Under the pieces are notes generated by a model that saw nothing but the letters and a program-made list of their open reading frames with translations, was not told the origin of the DNA and searched no databases. From Paenibacillus larvae subsp. larvae (lineage in GTDB: Bacteria > Bacillota > Bacilli > Paenibacillales > NBRC-103111), in contig NZ_CP019687.1 in assembly GCF_002003265.1 (NCBI RefSeq), positions 806,001-870,000 on the forward strand: DNA of 64,000 nt, given 5' to 3'. Both the position numbers and the translations under genes were made by a program. Below, one piece after another: positions 51,720-61,959 of this stretch. Each line of letters starts with the position of its first letter. The first letter of the stretch is position 1.

Positions 51720-51934
51720 GTAGGTCACCTCGGTATTTCATTCTTAATTTGCGGGACAAATCGCTAGTTTCAGTATATCGGAGCTTCAGGACCGGTACAA
51801 TGCCTGATAATCAGATAACCATACGGGAAGACCGAATTGCCTGCATATCAAGGAAGAGTTAATTTCCTATTGAGAAACTTGGGATTATCTTGTATAGTGA
51901 ATACAAATCGTTCTGCAAAATATTGCATATTGTG

Positions 51935-52112
51935 GAGACAGGTGCTTCGTCTGTAACGATGAAACTTAAAAGGGAAGATCGGTGTAAATCCGTCGCGGTC
52001 CCGCCACTGTAACAGAGGAGCCTTGTGCCAGGCAAACGCCACTGGTCTAAGATGACTGGGAAGGCGGCTTTAAGGCGATGAATCTGGAAGCCAGGAGACC
52101 TGCCTGTTCTAA
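51935..52112 (+). promoter_or_regulatory. Cobalamin riboswitch controlling metE
   Basis: Conserved aptamer features in order: AAAAGGGAA, GGTGTAAATCC, GCGGTCCCGCCACTGTAAC, GAGCC, GCCACTGG, GGGAAGGCGG, GATGAATCTGGAAGCCAGGAGACCTGCC. It senses coenzyme B12. With B12 present the downstream terminator forms and metE, whose enzyme does not need B12, is turned off. Confidence 0.93.
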
Positions 52113-52179
52113 CGACACTGCTAACCTACGGACGATAGGAAGGTGTTAGATGACCATGCCAGTTTATTATGCAAACACG

Positions 52180-52304: not shown

Positions 52305-54605
52305 ATGAGTAATTTGGTAAACGGTAATTTGGGTTATCCGAGAATCGGTTTGAACAGGGAATGGAAGAAAGCTCTGGAAAGTTTTTGGTCCGGAAAAATA
52401 GGGGAAGATGAGCTTCTTTCCACGACTCGCCAGCTTCGTCTCAGCCATTTGAGAAAGCAAATAGAGAAGGGCATTCAGCTAATCCCCGTAAACGATTTTA
52501 CTTTGTACGATCAAATGCTGGACCATGCGGCAATGTTCGGCCTGGTTCCAAGCCGTTTCCATTATGATGGAGGGCCTGTATCCTTAGAGACTTATTTCGC
52601 GATGGCTCGGGGAAATAAGCAGGCTACAGCTTGTGAAATGACCAAATGGTTTAATACCAACTATCACTATATTGTGCCTGAATTACAGGGCGCGGCGCCA
52701 TCCTTAACGGTAAACCGGCCGCTTGAGGCCTACCGTGAGGCTAAACAGGAATTAGGCGTAGAAACAAAGCCTGTCCTGATCGGGCTGCTCACCTTTCTGA
52801 AATTATCTAAAGGTTATGAGCCGGACCGGTTTGCCTCCCTGGCAGATCAGTTCCTTCCTTTGTATAAACAGATTCTAATAGAGCTGGAACAGGAAGGGGT
52901 TGCCTGGGTCCAAATTGATGAACCGGTATTAGCTGCATCTTTATTTACAAATGAGGATGTTCAGGTTTTGCAAAACGTTTATCAAGAACTTCATAAGGCT
53001 GCACCGGAATTGAACATTTTACTGCAAACTTATTTTGATTCCGTTCCATACTATGAAGCTGCTGCAGGATTGCCCGTACAGGCGCTTGGTCTTGACTTTG
53101 TCCAAGGAGCGGAAGGAAATCTCCAAGCTATTCAGCGTTTCGGTTTTCCGGAAGACAAAATCTTAGGTATCGGCATTATCGATGGCCGGAATATATGGGC
53201 TTCGGATTTAAAGGAAAAAATACGGACGCTTGAATCCATTTCCGCAGCGGTACCTTCTTCCAGGTGGATTCTTCAACCTTCCTGCAGCCTGCTGCATGTG
53301 CCAGTCAGCCTGGAGCAGGAATCGGGGCTGGATTCCGTTTTGAAACAAGCTTTAGCTTTTGCCGATGAAAAGCTGGATGAATTGGTCCTGCTGACTAAGT
53401 ATTGGACAGAAGGCAGTGATTCAGTTCAAGCGGATTTAACCAGCAACGAAGAGGCAGTCCGTGCCCTGAAAGAATCCGCTGCCCGGAATCATACGGAAGT
53501 GCAGAAAGCGGTAGAACAGCTAAAAAATGAGACAGGCAAACGAATCAGTCCATTCACCAGACGCAAACAGCTGCAGCAGGACAAATGGCAGCTTCCTCTA
53601 TTGCCTACAACTACCATCGGCAGTTTCCCGCAAACGAAGGAAGTTAGGCAAACACGGCTTAAATGGCGCAAAGGTGATATTACCAACGAGCAGTACCAGG
53701 CTTTCATTGAAGCGGAAATCAGGGATTGGGTTCAAATTCAGGAAGAAATCGGCCTGGATGTCCTGGTACATGGCGAATTCGAACGGACAGACATGGTAGA
53801 ATTTTTTGGTGAAAAATTAGGCGGCTTTGCCTTTACGAAAAACGGATGGGTACAGTCTTATGGATCCCGCTGTGTAAAACCTCCTGTCATTTACGGGGAT
53901 GTGTATTTTGATTCTCCGATGACCGTGAAGGAAAGTGTATACGCCCAGTCCCTTACATCAAAACCGATGAAAGGTATGCTTACAGGTCCAGTGACCATTT
54001 TAAACTGGTCCTTTGTACGGGATGATATTTCACGAGAAGCTGTAGCTAATCAAATTGCCCTGGCTCTGCGCAAGGAAATAGAGGAACTGGAGAAATCGGG
54101 AATTGAAATGATTCAAGTGGATGAACCTGCCCTTCGTGAAGGTCTCCCTCTTCAGGTGAAAGACAAAGATGGTTACCTGCGGTGGGCGGTTAAGGCCTTC
54201 AAGATAGCCACCTGCACAGTCAAAGATACGACACAGATTCATACTCATATGTGTTATTGCGAGTTTCAGGATGTGCTGGATTCTATCAAAGCGATGGATG
54301 CCGATGTGATCTCAATTGAGACATCCCGGAGCCATGGAGAACTTATCGGGGCGTTTGAAGAAGATACGTATGAACAGGGAATCGGCCTGGGCGTCTATGA
54401 TATTCACAGTCCAAGGGTCCCTTCCGTGGAAGAGATGGAGCAAATGATAGACCGGGCACTGAAAGTACTTGACCCCTCTCTCTTCTGGATAAATCCGGAT
54501 TGTGGTCTCAAGACTCGTGGAAGAGAGGAAACTATTGCTTCGCTCAAGAACATGGTGGAAGCTACACACCGGGCCAGAAACAAGCAGCTCCAATCTTTAT
54601 CCTAA
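52305..54605 (+). CDS. metE: Cobalamin-independent methionine synthase
   Basis: 766 residues, ATG 52305 with GAGAGGAG eight bases upstream. It transfers methyl from 5-methyltetrahydropteroyltri-glutamate to homocysteine. It has a double barrel: the N-terminal half starts GNLGYPRIGLNREWKKALE; the C-terminal half has TTTIGSFPQTKEVR, the zinc ligands in HTHMCYCEF (His, Cys), and INPDCGLKTRG with the last Cys. It is under the B12 riboswitch directly upstream, as expected for a cell that prefers MetH when B12 is available, and is monocistronic. Confidence 0.96.
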   Translation: MSNLVNGNLGYPRIGLNREWKKALESFWSGKIGEDELLSTTRQLRLSHLRKQIEKGIQLIPVNDFTLYDQMLDHAAMFGLVPSRFHYDGGPVSLETYFAMARGNKQATACEMTKWFNTNYHYIVPELQGAAPSLTVNRPLEAYREAKQELGVETKPVLIGLLTFLKLSKGYEPDRFASLADQFLPLYKQILIELEQEGVAWVQIDEPVLAASLFTNEDVQVLQNVYQELHKAAPELNILLQTYFDSVPYYEAAAGLPVQALGLDFVQGAEGNLQAIQRFGFPEDKILGIGIIDGRNIWASDLKEKIRTLESISAAVPSSRWILQPSCSLLHVPVSLEQESGLDSVLKQALAFADEKLDELVLLTKYWTEGSDSVQADLTSNEEAVRALKESAARNHTEVQKAVEQLKNETGKRISPFTRRKQLQQDKWQLPLLPTTTIGSFPQTKEVRQTRLKWRKGDITNEQYQAFIEAEIRDWVQIQEEIGLDVLVHGEFERTDMVEFFGEKLGGFAFTKNGWVQSYGSRCVKPPVIYGDVYFDSPMTVKESVYAQSLTSKPMKGMLTGPVTILNWSFVRDDISREAVANQIALALRKEIEELEKSGIEMIQVDEPALREGLPLQVKDKDGYLRWAVKAFKIATCTVKDTTQIHTHMCYCEFQDVLDSIKAMDADVISIETSRSHGELIGAFEEDTYEQGIGLGVYDIHSPRVPSVEEMEQMIDRALKVLDPSLFWINPDCGLKTRGREETIASLKNMVEATHRARNKQLQSLS

Positions 54606-57038: not shown

Positions 57039-57314
57039 TTAACCCCTTTAAAATGCGGGGAAAGTGCAGTTTACAGGGTCAATTATGTGTGTTCCCCTAT
57101 AGATTGTACCCTTTCAGGTTTGTTTTGCCGCATGTTTACACGCCTCCATAGATCAAGTTGCTTTTAGTTTAACACAGCGGGGCCATTTACTGTAAACCCC
57201 TTTGTTTTCATTCGAACAGACTCTTTAATATTTTTCCTGATGATTATCCGGAAGACAAAAAATAAAGAAAAAAACCATTGACAATTATACAGGTCTCTAT
57301 TACAATGCAGAAAG

Positions 57315-57545
57315 AACTTCATAAGACCTCGTTAGGTGAGGCTCCTATGCAAATACAGGCCACTGCCCAGAAATATCGAAAGATGCCCATGGGTAGAACA
57401 GGGATTGCCGGATTAAGGCTTTTCATAATGTGGCTAAGGGAAGGATACCTTCTCTTTACGTTGCATAGTGCCAAAACTCAACCAGGGGGAACGGCAGCTA
57501 TTTTTGCGTGCGAATTCTATACCCCTGGTCTGAACCAGGGGTTTT
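57315..57545 (+). promoter_or_regulatory. M-box (ykoK) Mg2+ riboswitch with intrinsic terminator
   Basis: Aptamer landmarks of the M-box: CTCGTTAGGTGAGGCTCCTA at about 57328, CACTGCCCAGAAATATCGAAAG, GCCCATGGG, and GCATAGTGCCAAAACTC near 57464. Terminator hairpin ACCCCTGG / CCAGGGGT lies at 57521-57542 with a T-run. ACCAGGGG at 57481-57488 can pair with CCCCTGGT instead, an evident antiterminator. High Mg2+ should stabilise the aptamer and let the terminator form. It controls the leader ORF, mgtA and probably mgtE downstream. Confidence 0.9.
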
Positions 57546-57628
57546 CTGGTTGTTCAGATTTTCAGAGCCGTTTTGTTTAAGTGATTAATCATGAGACTTA
57601 TGACTTGAATTTAAAGGGGGGAGAAACC

Positions 57629-57799
57629 ATGGACGGGAGTCCAAGCAGGCAAACGATAATGATAGACAGATACAGGTCCTGGTCAAAGAGAGCGGATCGG
57701 TTCTTTTTATTGCAGATGGAATACCCGTTGACACGGATGACTCCTTCCTTATGGCAAGGGTTATTTGAGTATGCACTTCTGAGTAAAGAGAAACCATAA
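57629..57799 (+). CDS. Leader ORF between the M-box and mgtA
   Basis: 56 codons from ATG 57629, with a strong AAAGGGGGGAG site (57613-57623), so it is probably translated. The peptide is basic and aromatic (DRYRSWSKRADRFFLL) and ends KEKP before TAA. It resembles no family I know. A terminator hairpin starts 12 bases after its stop, so a ribosome waiting at the last codons would touch the stem, the geometry of a leader-peptide attenuator. Salmonella mgtA has a Pro-rich leader (mgtL); here only three prolines are present, one of them the last codon. Regulatory function is inference. Confidence 0.55.
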   Translation: MDGSPSRQTIMIDRYRSWSKRADRFFLLQMEYPLTRMTPSLWQGLFEYALLSKEKP

Positions 57800-57811
57800 A
57801 GATCCGGCAGC

Positions 57812-57838
57812 TCCTCCTGATACAGGGGGATTTTTTTT
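57812..57838 (+). terminator. Second terminator before mgtA
   Basis: TCCTCCTG pairs with CAGGGGGA over the loop ATA, followed directly by eight T residues. It sits between the leader ORF stop and the mgtA SD, so every mgtA transcript must pass two intrinsic terminators. The 5' arm is also anti-SD-like. Confidence 0.8.
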
Positions 57839-57868
57839 GTGGTTTTTTTTGAAAGGAGAGAGAACAAC

Positions 57869-60517
57869 ATGACCTTTTTCGGTAACAAACAATGCCAAAC
57901 GGATTTGAACAACAAAAAAATCAGCGATCATCTGATAGAAATGTTTATTTGCCACGAGGAAGATTTGCTGGAACAGTACAGGACCAGCAGAATAAGCGGA
58001 TTAACGGAGAAGGAAGCGGTAAAACGTCTTAAAGAATACGGCCCCAATCATATCACCCATGAAAAGTTGCCGGCCTGGTACATTCAACTACTGTCCTGCT
58101 TTAAGAATCCGTTTATACTCATTCTTCTCGGATTGGCTTTGTTTTCTTATCTGACAGATGACATTGAAGCCGTGCTGATTATAAGTACGATGGTCACCAT
58201 TAGCGTTCTCATTACGTTTACCCAGGAATTCCGCTCGATGCGGATGGCAGAGAAACTGAAAGAAATGGTGAAAACGACAGTAACCGTCATGCGAAACGGA
58301 GAATACCGGGAAATAAATATGGAAGAACTTGTTCCCGGCGACAGGATTCGTTTATCTGCCGGGGATTTGGTTCCGGCTGATGTCCGGCTGCTGGCAGCCA
58401 AAGATCTATCTGTAGGAGAATCAGTTCTTACAGGAGAATCAATGCCTGTGGAAAAACGGGATATTCCTAATGGCGGATTAATCAAAGCAAAGCGAAAACT
58501 GCTGGAAAAAGCAAACGCACTAGAACTTGATAACATGTGTTACATGGGAACGAATGTGAACAGCGGCACAGCTGAGGCTTTGGTCGTAGCAACGGGAAGT
58601 TCCACTTATTTCGGTTCCATGGCAGGGACATTGACTGCAAAAAGACCTCTTACCAGCTTTGACCGGGGTGTTACCAGCATTACGTATATTTTGATTCGTT
58701 TTATGCTTATTATGGTTCCGATTATCTTTTTCATCAATGGTTTTACCAAGGGTGACTGGTGGGAAGCCATGTTTTTCGGTTTGTCTGTGGCGGTTGGATT
58801 GACGCCGGAAATGCTGCCGGTAATTGTTACCGCCAACCTGGCTAAAGGCGCTAATACGATGTCCAAACATAAAGTGGTAGTCAAGAAGCTGAATGCCATT
58901 CAAAATTTAGGGGCCATGGATATCCTCTGTACGGATAAGACCGGTACCCTCACTAGAGACAAAATCATTTTAGAGACTTATCAGGATATAAACGGGAACG
59001 AAAATAAAGAGGTACTGACCTACGCTTATCTCAATAGTTTCCATCAAACCGGATTAAAAAATCTGCTCGATGTTGCTGTGCTGGAGCATGCAGAGTTAAC
59101 AGAAGTTTTGGGATCTGAAAAATACTATACCAAAGTGGACGAAATTCCTTTTGATTTTCACCGCCGCAGAATGTCTGTAGTGGTGAGTAAGCAGGGGAAT
59201 GGGCATGTGCTCATTTGTAAAGGTGCCGTGGAAGAGATGCTCAGCATATGTACACATGCCTACAATGACGGAAAAGCGGTAGAGTTTACGGAGGAACTAT
59301 CCCTTACTGTCCAAAACAAGGTACGGCAGATGAATGCGGATGGACTAAGGGTTGTGGGTGTAGCTGTGAAGCATGCAGCCGGAAACCGGGAAGTTTACGG
59401 CATCCAGGATGAGCAGGATTTGGTTCTGGTCGGAATGATCGGGTTCCTGGACCCGCCGAAAGAGAGTTCTGCAGATGCTATCAGGGCCCTTAGGGAAAAT
59501 GGTGTGACAGTAAAAGTGCTGACAGGTGATAACGCGGAAGTCACACGCAAAGTTTGTCAGGATGTCGGTATAGAAGTGAAAGATATTATACTGGGTACAG
59601 ATCTGATTGGATTAACCGGCTCCCAGCTGGCGGAAAAAGCGGAGAAGTATAACGTGTTCGCGAAGTTGAACCCGCATCAGAAGTCAGAGCTGGTCCGCGC
59701 GCTGCAAAGCAAAGGGCATACGGTTGGTTTTATGGGTGACGGCATTAACGATGCCGCTTCCCTGAAGGATGCCGATATTGGTATTTCTGTCGATACGGCA
59801 GTGGATATAGCCAAAGAATCCGCAGATATTATCCTGCTGGAAAAAAGCTTGATGGTTTTGGAAAAAGGCATTCTGGAAGGCAGAAGAACCTTCGGGAATA
59901 TCATCAAATATATCAAAATGACCACAAGCTCTAATTTCGGTAATGTGTTTAGTGTGCTTGGGGCAAGTGCTTTTCTGCCGTTTCTTCCTATGCTGCCGAT
60001 TCATTTGCTTATTCAAAACCTGTTTTACGATATTTCACAAATTGCGATTCCCTGGGATAACCTGGATAAGGAATTTTTGAAAAAACCCCGGAACTGGGAT
60101 GCGAAATCAGTAGGAAGGTTTATGTTCTTCGTAGGCCCCACCAGCTCGATCTTCGATTATTTGACATTTGGTCTGATGTATTTTGTCTTTGCTGCCCATA
60201 CACCGGCAGATCAGGCTTTGTTCCACTCGGGCTGGTTTATTGAAGGACTGCTCTCACAAACCTTAATCGTGCATATGATCCGGACAGAGAAGATTCCTTT
60301 CATTCAAAGCAGGGCCAGTCTGCCTGTGCTAGTCATGACAATCGTCATAGCGGCTGCCGGCATAGCGATTCCTTTCTCGGCATTCGGCGAAGCTATCGGT
60401 CTTGTTCCGCTTCCGCTGACCTACTTCCCATGGCTTGTTGCCATTCTGCTTGGTTATGCGCTTCTCACACAAGGTGTGAAAACGTGGTATATCCGCAAAT
60501 TTAAAGAATGGTTATAA
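57869..60517 (+). CDS. mgtA: Mg2+-importing P-type ATPase
   Basis: 882 residues from ATG 57869 (AAAGGAGAGAG upstream). P3B-type ATPase: phosphorylation site CTDKTGTLTRD (Asp about residue 360), TGES in the actuator domain (VLTGESMPVEKRD), MTGDN-equivalent VLTGDNAEVTRK, and hinge MGDGINDAASLKDADIG. N-terminal cation-ATPase domain (GLTEKEAVKRLKEYGPN) and about ten transmembrane helices. Position under an M-box and ahead of mgtE supports Mg2+ uptake. It is separated from mgtE by about 105 bases with a hairpin. Confidence 0.94.
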   Translation: MTFFGNKQCQTDLNNKKISDHLIEMFICHEEDLLEQYRTSRISGLTEKEAVKRLKEYGPNHITHEKLPAWYIQLLSCFKNPFILILLGLALFSYLTDDIEAVLIISTMVTISVLITFTQEFRSMRMAEKLKEMVKTTVTVMRNGEYREINMEELVPGDRIRLSAGDLVPADVRLLAAKDLSVGESVLTGESMPVEKRDIPNGGLIKAKRKLLEKANALELDNMCYMGTNVNSGTAEALVVATGSSTYFGSMAGTLTAKRPLTSFDRGVTSITYILIRFMLIMVPIIFFINGFTKGDWWEAMFFGLSVAVGLTPEMLPVIVTANLAKGANTMSKHKVVVKKLNAIQNLGAMDILCTDKTGTLTRDKIILETYQDINGNENKEVLTYAYLNSFHQTGLKNLLDVAVLEHAELTEVLGSEKYYTKVDEIPFDFHRRRMSVVVSKQGNGHVLICKGAVEEMLSICTHAYNDGKAVEFTEELSLTVQNKVRQMNADGLRVVGVAVKHAAGNREVYGIQDEQDLVLVGMIGFLDPPKESSADAIRALRENGVTVKVLTGDNAEVTRKVCQDVGIEVKDIILGTDLIGLTGSQLAEKAEKYNVFAKLNPHQKSELVRALQSKGHTVGFMGDGINDAASLKDADIGISVDTAVDIAKESADIILLEKSLMVLEKGILEGRRTFGNIIKYIKMTTSSNFGNVFSVLGASAFLPFLPMLPIHLLIQNLFYDISQIAIPWDNLDKEFLKKPRNWDAKSVGRFMFFVGPTSSIFDYLTFGLMYFVFAAHTPADQALFHSGWFIEGLLSQTLIVHMIRTEKIPFIQSRASLPVLVMTIVIAAAGIAIPFSAFGEAIGLVPLPLTYFPWLVAILLGYALLTQGVKTWYIRKFKEWL

Positions 60518-60624: not shown

Positions 60625-61959
60625 ATGAAACATATTTTACAGCAATTACTCCATTCAAAGGATATTACTTTACAAAAAGACCTGCTATACCAAAATTCCT
60701 TTGATATTGCCAAAGAATTAAAAACTTGTTCTCATAAGGACCAAGTCACTCTTATTGAATTATTCCCGATTGAAAATGGTGCCCAGATTATTAGTCATCT
60801 TACTCCTGAAGAACAATACCGTATTCTAACTCATCTGTCTGACGATAAAGCAAAGCTATTATTTGACAAGCAATCAATTGACGATATTGTGGATGTACTA
60901 TTGGCCCTTCATCCGAATCAGGCTGAACGTTTGATGGATTATTTACCAAAAGAAACCCAGCAAAACATAAAAAAGCTGATGGAATACTCACCCGAAACAG
61001 CCGGAGGTCATGTTACGACTGATTATATTGCGGCCAGAGAACATTGGTCAGTCAAAGATACCCTTTCCCATATAAGAAAAATTGGTGACAGGCTGGAATC
61101 CCTTTCTTATATTTATGTTCTTGATAGTCTTGGACACTTGAATGGCGTTGTTTCCATTAGACAATTATTGTTAAGAAAAGAAGATACGGTATTATCAGAC
61201 ATTATGAATCAATCTGTGATTTCAGTGAATGCAGATTCAGATCAACAAGAAGCTGCACAAAAACTGACGGATTATAACTTTGCGGCACTCCCTGTGACAA
61301 CATCTGATAACCGTATGATCGGCATTATTACGTTTGATGATGCCATCGATGTGATTCAAGATGAAGCAACGAAAGACATTCATCAATTAGGAGGAAGTTC
61401 CCCTCTTAATACTCCATATTTCGAAACTTCGGTTTGGACTGTTTTTCGTAAACGTATAGGCTGGTTATTACTTCTTTTTGTAGCTGAAGCATACACCTCA
61501 ACTATTCTAAGCCATTATGAAGACGTGCTTTCCCAGGTAGTTGCGCTCGCTTTCTTTATTCCCTTGTTAGTCGGGACCGGAGGTAATATTGGCACTCAAG
61601 TTACCGCTACACTCATCCGTGCAATAAGTCTTGGTGAAGTGAAAATTAAGCATATATTGCGTGTCATGGGAAAAGAGGCCTTAACGGGACTTTTACTTGG
61701 ATGTGCATTAGGAATAGCCATGTTAATTCGTTCCAGTATTATGGGACCCAGTGTAGGAATAGAAGTTGCTCAAGTCGTATCCATTACAGTATTATGTATT
61801 ATTGTTTGGTCTTCACTTGTAGCATCTGTCTTACCTATACTGCTAACTAAGTTAAAGCTTGATCCGGCGGTCGTTTCCGGACCATTTATTACAACATTTG
61901 TTGATGGAACAGGATTAATTATATATTTCACTGTTGCAACAATACTCTTAAATCTATGA
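60625..61959 (+). CDS. mgtE: MgtE magnesium channel/transporter
   Basis: 444 residues from ATG 60625 (AAAGGAGGGAG upstream); an upstream in-frame ORF extension begins inside the mgtA end but has no role. The N domain (IELFPIENGAQIISHLTPEEQYRILTHLSDDKA) and two CBS domains (GHVTTDYIAAREHW; SDIMNQSVISVNADSD) form the Mg2+ sensor that gates the pore. Five transmembrane helices follow, with GTGGNIGTQVTATLIRAI near residue 325 as the pore signature and DGTGLIIYF at the end. It is the second Mg2+ system of the locus. Confidence 0.93.
   Translation: MKHILQQLLHSKDITLQKDLLYQNSFDIAKELKTCSHKDQVTLIELFPIENGAQIISHLTPEEQYRILTHLSDDKAKLLFDKQSIDDIVDVLLALHPNQAERLMDYLPKETQQNIKKLMEYSPETAGGHVTTDYIAAREHWSVKDTLSHIRKIGDRLESLSYIYVLDSLGHLNGVVSIRQLLLRKEDTVLSDIMNQSVISVNADSDQQEAAQKLTDYNFAALPVTTSDNRMIGIITFDDAIDVIQDEATKDIHQLGGSSPLNTPYFETSVWTVFRKRIGWLLLLFVAEAYTSTILSHYEDVLSQVVALAFFIPLLVGTGGNIGTQVTATLIRAISLGEVKIKHILRVMGKEALTGLLLGCALGIAMLIRSSIMGPSVGIEVAQVVSITVLCIIVWSSLVASVLPILLTKLKLDPAVVSGPFITTFVDGTGLIIYFTVATILLNL

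Follow-up and report, generated by a model that had tools for sequence, protein, structure and literature searches.

The magnesium transporter gene mgtA of Paenibacillus larvae subsp. larvae lies in a 64,000-nucleotide stretch of the genome (NZ_CP019687.1, positions 806,001 to 870,000 of the forward strand; hereafter the window, to which all positions refer), where it is preceded by an M-box Mg2+ riboswitch and, between this riboswitch and the gene, by a 56-codon open reading frame (ORF) and a second terminator. The locus raises the question of what a leader ORF with a terminator of its own does behind a riboswitch. As judged from comparison with related leaders, it appears rather probable that the M-box acts in series with an attenuator of the trp/erm type, which is set by the position of a ribosome on the first codons of the leader ORF. 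By analogy with the enterobacterial leader peptide MgtL, this ribosome step is probably worked by Mg2+-sensitive pausing or drop-off, and the cell probably measures magnesium twice.

Leader architecture upstream of mgtA

The M-box aptamer (RF00380; 57321–57496, + strand, like the other parts of this leader and mgtA) is matched by cmscan over its full length (model positions 1–169) with 149.7 bits and an E-value of 4.4e-34, the gathering score being 44. Its expression platform comprises an antiterminator segment, ACCAGGGG (57481–57488), and terminator 1 (57521–57542), which has a 9-bp stem, a 4-nt loop and a T-rich tail. The segment CCCCTGGT (57522–57529) is complementary to ACCAGGGG and may either pair with it, as in the minimum free energy (MFE) fold, or form part of terminator 1; the antiterminator form is the MFE structure and the terminator form the centroid (z -3.7). 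This riboswitch and platform stand before mgtA (57869–60517), which encodes an Mg2+-importing P-type ATPase of 882 residues (TIGR01524, 1302 bits).

Between the two lies the leader ORF (57629–57799, ATG to TAA; 56 residues, MDGSPSRQTIMIDRYRSWSKRADRFFLLQMEYPLTRMTPSLWQGLFEYALLSKEKP), which is led by the Shine-Dalgarno (SD) sequence AAAGGGGGGAG (57613–57623), aligned in relatives, and has counterparts beginning with M[DE] at the same position in related species. Terminator 2 (57812–57838), a hairpin TCCTCCTG-ATA-CAGGGGGA with its stem at 57812–57830 followed by T8, begins 12 nt after the stop codon and occupies the same place in relatives, in whose alignment 94% of the hairpin cells are paired. 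The sequence-only reading, which had described an M-box with its own terminator and antiterminator, then a 56-codon ORF behind a very strong SD, and finally a second terminator ahead of mgtA, is thus borne out by the sequence and by the RF00380 match.

Distribution of the leader ORF behind M-boxes

Searches with RF00380 over the family, the order and the phylum gave 162 M-boxes with a recognisable downstream gene, where a leader ORF was scored if it was led by an SD, contained 12–99 codons and lay wholly between aptamer and gene. Such an ORF is present at 94 of these M-boxes, compared with 1/28 S-adenosylmethionine (SAM) and 1/28 flavin mononucleotide (FMN) riboswitch loci of the phylum treated by the same procedure, these controls being the best-scoring loci of each riboswitch only. 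It goes with long gaps between aptamer and gene, as it was found at 64 of the 76 gaps of at least 250 nt and at one of the 36 gaps shorter than 150 nt. In the phylum-drawn set, 24 of the 37 families that have M-boxes possess a leader, and the downstream genes include mgtA, mgtE, corA, mgtC-like genes (assigned by eye), DUF1003 genes, an ATP-binding cassette (ABC) permease gene and FtsW/RodA. Related sequences are not independent, and the thinning and one-per-family counts used below correct for kinship in part only.

In Paenibacillus, Brevibacillus and Cohnella, terminator 1, a strong SD, an ORF beginning with M[DE][GS].[PS]S, a conserved 3' nucleotide motif, terminator 2 and mgtA follow in the same order. 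The tandem arrangement of riboswitch and leader ORF, as far as these genomes indicate, thus recurs in many relatives and is not a local curiosity. A chance ORF next to an unrelated terminator would agree with the protein search of the 56-residue peptide against 59 related genomes, in which no match was stronger than E 0.06. Since dozens of species share the position, the SD, the N-terminus, the pairings and the terminator, this explanation is barely credible and was rejected. The layout of M-box, leader ORF, terminator 2 and mgtA in the window is real and beyond chance, because it recurs at M-boxes across the family and the phylum (94/162 versus 1/28 and 1/28 in the controls).

Conservation along the leader peptide

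The same protein search revealed no convincing relative of the whole peptide among the 59 genomes (no match stronger than E 0.06), and neither Pfam nor NCBIfam gave a match to it. Leader lengths range from 13 to 63 residues across the set. In two nearly identical leaders (L142 and L143), the first 77 nt are the same, while a 1-nt indel shifts the frame of the 3' half of the ORF. Near the end of the leader ORF, the nucleotide motif GGTnTATTTAAGtATGcGTATTTGA (window 57760–57785; relatives L031–L036 and L121–L150) is conserved in different reading frames in different species. By sequence comparison, the peptide is conserved in its first codons only and not as a whole, and its end is not under selection, because near-identical species change frame in the 3' half. 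The frame shift and the frame-independent motif together suggest that the later part of the ORF is important as RNA and not as peptide. Conservation of the leader ORF, which the sequence-only reading had taken as its critical test, was found in relatives for the N-terminus, the SD and the position.

These results bear on the possibility that the ORF encodes a small functional protein, such as MgtS or MgtR, within an ordinary operon and with its own terminator. A strong SD, 56 codons and a terminator soon after the stop codon are what such a gene would have. This explanation is very improbable and was rejected, as the peptide matches no Pfam or NCBIfam family, its conservation is limited to the first codons, its 3' half changes frame between near-identical species and its length varies from 13 to 63 residues.

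First codons of the leader peptides

The conserved start of the leaders is acidic. Residue 2 is aspartate or glutamate in 72 of the 91 distinct leaders picked mechanically, and in 83 of 94 after choice of the in-frame start, compared with 15 of the 162 main downstream genes; the motif M[DE]x0-3P occurs in 43/91 leaders and 2/162 main genes. When one leader per family was taken (19 families, leaders chosen for an acidic residue 2), the count of acidic residues within residues 2–9 was 2.32 in the reading frame and 0.58 and 0.26 in the two alternative frames, and codons varied most at their third position. The pattern was noticed before it was counted, which makes the statistics post hoc; the effects are large and the controls were obtained by the same procedure.

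MgtL of Escherichia coli (17 residues) begins with MEPDPTPLP; control there requires Glu2 and Asp4, the acidic residues of EPDP, and ribosomes drop off at low Mg2+ (PMC11282234). Leader starts resembling it are MDPDPGSSIK, MDPDPGSRYR, MDADPEPQMD, MDDPDADLII, MEDPYPGYPE, MSADPEPPPD and MDPEPTSIVRCR. Close look-alikes within the order occur at M-boxes before DUF1003 genes (L147, L148, L172, L212, L213 and L220), whose leaders carry EPDPEP or EPEPEP at about codons 7–13. The window leader starts with MDGSPS and is one of a Paenibacillales subtype (MDSSPS, MDGSPS, MDSSSS) that is poorer in acidic residues, which makes the analogy with MgtL, on sequence grounds, weaker for it than for its relatives; it does share with the MgtL type a short SD-led ORF in the leader of an Mg2+ transporter gene. 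Among Paenibacillales leaders, serine is encoded by AGT at 142 of 188 serine codons in residues 2–9, compared with 59 of 265 elsewhere in the ORFs.

Proline supply had been proposed by the sequence-only reading as one possible signal, and an attenuator that senses amino-acid supply through the proline or serine codons of the leader would correspond to one input of Salmonella mgtL. Proline stands at position 5 in 35/91 leaders, and some leaders contain runs of up to five serine codons. Neither residue is universal, the commonest feature by far is aspartate or glutamate at residue 2, and there is no known reason why serine should control Mg2+ uptake. Amino-acid supply as the main signal is therefore quite improbable, and proline supply is retained as a possible but secondary input.

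Alternative RNA pairings

Pairing between leader segments was assessed by a species-swap duplex test, in which the pairing of each species' own segments is compared with that of segments exchanged between species (10000 permutations); other ORF windows, the SD and reversed sequences served as controls. The test was used because column-wise covariation is weak, the arms varying little. For the antiterminator and the terminator arm, it was applied to the 35 loci with a second terminator, which were thinned to 27.

Two pairings emerged. The start region (SD, AUG and codons 1–6) pairs with ORF nt 60–110 more strongly in own than in swapped combinations (-23.7 versus -20.4; z -6.2, 0/10000), whereas the reversed controls were null. 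Its pairing with the ORF interior reaches -28.2 in leaders, compared with -17.0 for the main genes at these loci (p 4e-27). The second pairing connects ORF nt 40–80 (codons 14–27) with the 5' arm of terminator 2, where own segments give -12.2 and swapped segments -10.0 kcal/mol (0/10000); this signal persists in the thinned set of 27 loci, overlapping windows carry less of it, and distant windows and the SD none. In the 26 leaders that lack terminator 2, the start region pairs with the mid-ORF (z -9.8), and the mid-ORF pairs with an arm that would mask the SD of the main gene (anti-SD arm; z -5.9), both at 0/10000, while the reversed controls reach z -2.0 and -2.8. The swap tests thus give two covarying pairings, one between leader start and mid-ORF and the other between mid-ORF and either the 5' arm of terminator 2 or the anti-SD arm.

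In the window, region 1 (SD, start codon and first codons; 57613–57648) has its predicted partner in region 2' (57710–57751), an ORF segment that would sequester the leader SD and start, with a duplex energy of -32.9 kcal/mol. The antiterminator position is occupied by CAAAGAGAGCGGATC (codons 19–24; 57684–57698), which aligns with GAGGGAGAAC of the relatives and is weak in the window copy. A generic pairing between SD and terminator arm, considered for the window, was rejected as a general mechanism (swap z +1.8).

These positions do not agree with the geometry first suggested, where a ribosome at the last codons would reach the base of the terminator stem. The distance from stop codon to terminator 2 is not conserved, ranging from the 12 nt of the window, the shortest of the set, to 56 nt; the covarying antiterminator lies instead at codons 14–27 and the start-sequestering partner at about ORF nt 60–120. 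Of the two-input control that had been proposed, a riboswitch followed by a leader-ORF stage finds support in the conservation, in both covarying pairings and in the N-terminal bias; the stop-codon geometry is not supported.

The pairing of the start region also gives weight to a ribosome-occupancy attenuator without any effect of the nascent peptide, in which the leader would sense the general translation state (ease of initiation or movement) and the first codons would be kept for their pairing with the mid-ORF. Codons 1–6 are part of a region that pairs with the mid-ORF far above expectation, and the AGT bias of the early serine codons (142/188) suggests a nucleotide constraint. Yet the third codon positions are the most variable and the excess of aspartate, glutamate and proline is confined to one frame in the one-per-family set, EPDPEP motifs occur deeper in the ORF too (L172), and the match with MgtL in the same gene context would have to be coincidence. 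Occupancy without a peptide effect is thus regarded as unlikely.

Several observations weigh against an attenuator of the trp/erm type with MgtL-like first codons. The column-wise covariation between antiterminator and arm is weak (p ~0.025 when restricted to the core and 0.14 over the full 12 pairs), as there is little variation on either side. In the window, the pairing of the antiterminator with the terminator-2 arm is no better than that of shuffled sequences (19% are as good), and 4.4% of the shuffles still match it when upstream bases are included; the window copy may have diverged from the set or be wired differently. When the complete leader is folded at equilibrium, terminator 2 prevails in most species both with and without a modelled ribosome, and ribosome masks did not separate the on and off states. 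Folding of truncated transcripts gave pairing of the arm with the antiterminator at fractions of at least 0.6 in about a third of the species, and strong antiterminator pairing was not seen in the window, while RNAalifold on a MAFFT alignment recovered the structure in part only. As for the peptide, residues 2–9 of the window leader hold one acidic residue and one proline only, and the conservation of the first codons may partly reflect RNA pairing.

Proposed two-stage mechanism

The proposed mechanism builds on four results of the comparison among leaders: the layout recurs, the N-terminus is biased, two pairings covary, and the 3' half of the ORF does not keep its frame. In the first stage, ample Mg2+ would cause the M-box and terminator 1 to stop transcription; in the second, RNA polymerase that has passed terminator 1 would expose the leader ORF to translation, the outcome depending on the ribosome. 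Without a ribosome, the leader SD and start would pair with the mid-ORF, the antiterminator would be trapped, terminator 2 would form and mgtA would be off. A ribosome reading straight through would cover the antiterminator, and terminator 2 would again form with mgtA off. A ribosome that pauses on, or drops off, the first codons, which are rich in Asp, Glu, Pro and Ser and MgtL-like, would keep the start region open and let the antiterminator pair with the 5' arm of terminator 2, and mgtA would be on.

Low Mg2+ is the likely cause of such early pausing or drop-off, and the first codons would be expected to be Mg2+-sensitive if the precedent of MgtL applies. The order of states would correspond to pairings 1:2, 2:3 and 3:4, where region 1 is the leader start, region 2 the mid-ORF, region 3 the 5' arm and region 4 either the 3' arm of terminator 2 or the SD of the main gene; a ribosome held on the first codons would open 1:2 and keep 3:4 from forming. 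Where the leader of a relative ends in an anti-SD hairpin and not in a terminator, translation of mgtE or corA would come under the same logic.

Further features of the window and other M-box loci

A promoter-like sequence (TTGACA-17-TACAAT; 57278–57306, 11/12 consensus matches) is predicted upstream of the M-box, and a consensus scan found no further sigma-70-like site on the + strand between M-box and mgtA. The SD of mgtA lies at 57852–57860, and an mgtE-type Mg2+ transporter gene (60625–61959) follows mgtA directly on the same strand. The window also contains a cobalamin riboswitch (51923–52121, 116.5 bits) upstream of a metE-like gene at 52305.

Genome G000 possesses a second M-box (L122; G000:C1:1139300-1144900) before a gene of the FtsW/RodA/SpoVE family, an unusual M-box target; a small leader ORF (MKGHSCNSANH...) and also a terminator lie between the two. 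Its third M-box (L151; G000:C1:2171400-2177000) has no leader ORF by the survey definition, and the first long ORF, transposase-like in appearance, is located about 1.4 kb further on. In G014, two M-boxes in tandem (L119 and L120), whose aptamers are separated by about 320 nt and which both possess a terminator-like hairpin of their own, lie upstream of an NRAMP-like-looking gene.

Relation to known systems

The first stage is a full M-box (ykoK leader, RF00380) with an intrinsic terminator, whereas the M-box has been described without a second, translated stage. The second stage resembles MgtL of E. coli and Salmonella mgtA in being a short leader ORF of an Mg2+ transporter gene with early aspartate or glutamate and proline and, as proposed here, in that the translation state decides expression; drop-off at low Mg2+ has been demonstrated for MgtL itself (PMC11282234). 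There, no M-box is present and termination is Rho-dependent, while here the leader follows a riboswitch and its second step relies on an intrinsic terminator or an anti-SD hairpin. The likeness is treated as an analogy, as the peptides are too short and divergent and give no evidence of common descent.

Like the trp-type and the erm/ilvB upstream ORF (uORF) attenuators, the leaders offer alternative start:mid, mid:arm and arm:arm pairings, among which the position of the ribosome would decide. The trp-type trait of a covarying antiterminator inside the leader ORF that excludes the terminator is seen in the relatives' set and is weak in the window copy. The trp-type and erm/ilvB attenuators sense an amino acid or a drug, whereas the codons here suggest that early elongation responds to Mg2+, which is also the ligand of the riboswitch in front of the unit. 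The Salmonella mgtCBR operon likewise has two attenuating leader stages and is Mg2+-related, but both of its stages are leader ORFs (PMC3641672), where one is a riboswitch here.

The nearest published case is the pe20 M-box of Mycobacterium tuberculosis, which is followed by the conserved translated uORF2/Rv1805A before an Mg2+-related operon (PMC12810186, 2026). It resembles the present leaders in having a conserved uORF after the M-box and a conserved N-terminal proline, and differs in its translational platform and Rho dependence; the peptide is called specific to mycobacteria, and neither a leader-peptide attenuator nor a likeness to MgtL is proposed (PMC12810186). In the literature searched, the coverage of which was partial so that an earlier mention is possible, no description of leader peptides behind Bacillota M-boxes was found. 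The novelty that the sequence-only reading had assumed for M-box Firmicutes agrees with this search, while an M-box with a conserved uORF is already published for Mycobacterium.

Whether the long-leader M-boxes of Bacillota are mostly the first half of a composite Mg2+ sensor appears about evenly poised; its second half would be a nascent peptide similar to MgtL by convergence, and the Mg2+ sensitivity of its early elongation would drive an attenuator of the trp/erm type, with free and ribosome-bound Mg2+ read in series on one RNA. Studies of the M-box, the textbook Mg2+ riboswitch, have treated it as a single switch that is complete in itself. If most long-leader M-boxes do feed a ribosome-based Mg2+ sensor, the single-switch model would be incomplete, MgtL-like sensing would have arisen outside enterobacteria, and one RNA could distinguish free Mg2+ from ribosome-available Mg2+. 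These leaders would then offer a testable case of nascent-peptide Mg2+ sensing in Bacillus and Clostridium, and many natural sequences from which to learn what makes early codons Mg2+-sensitive.

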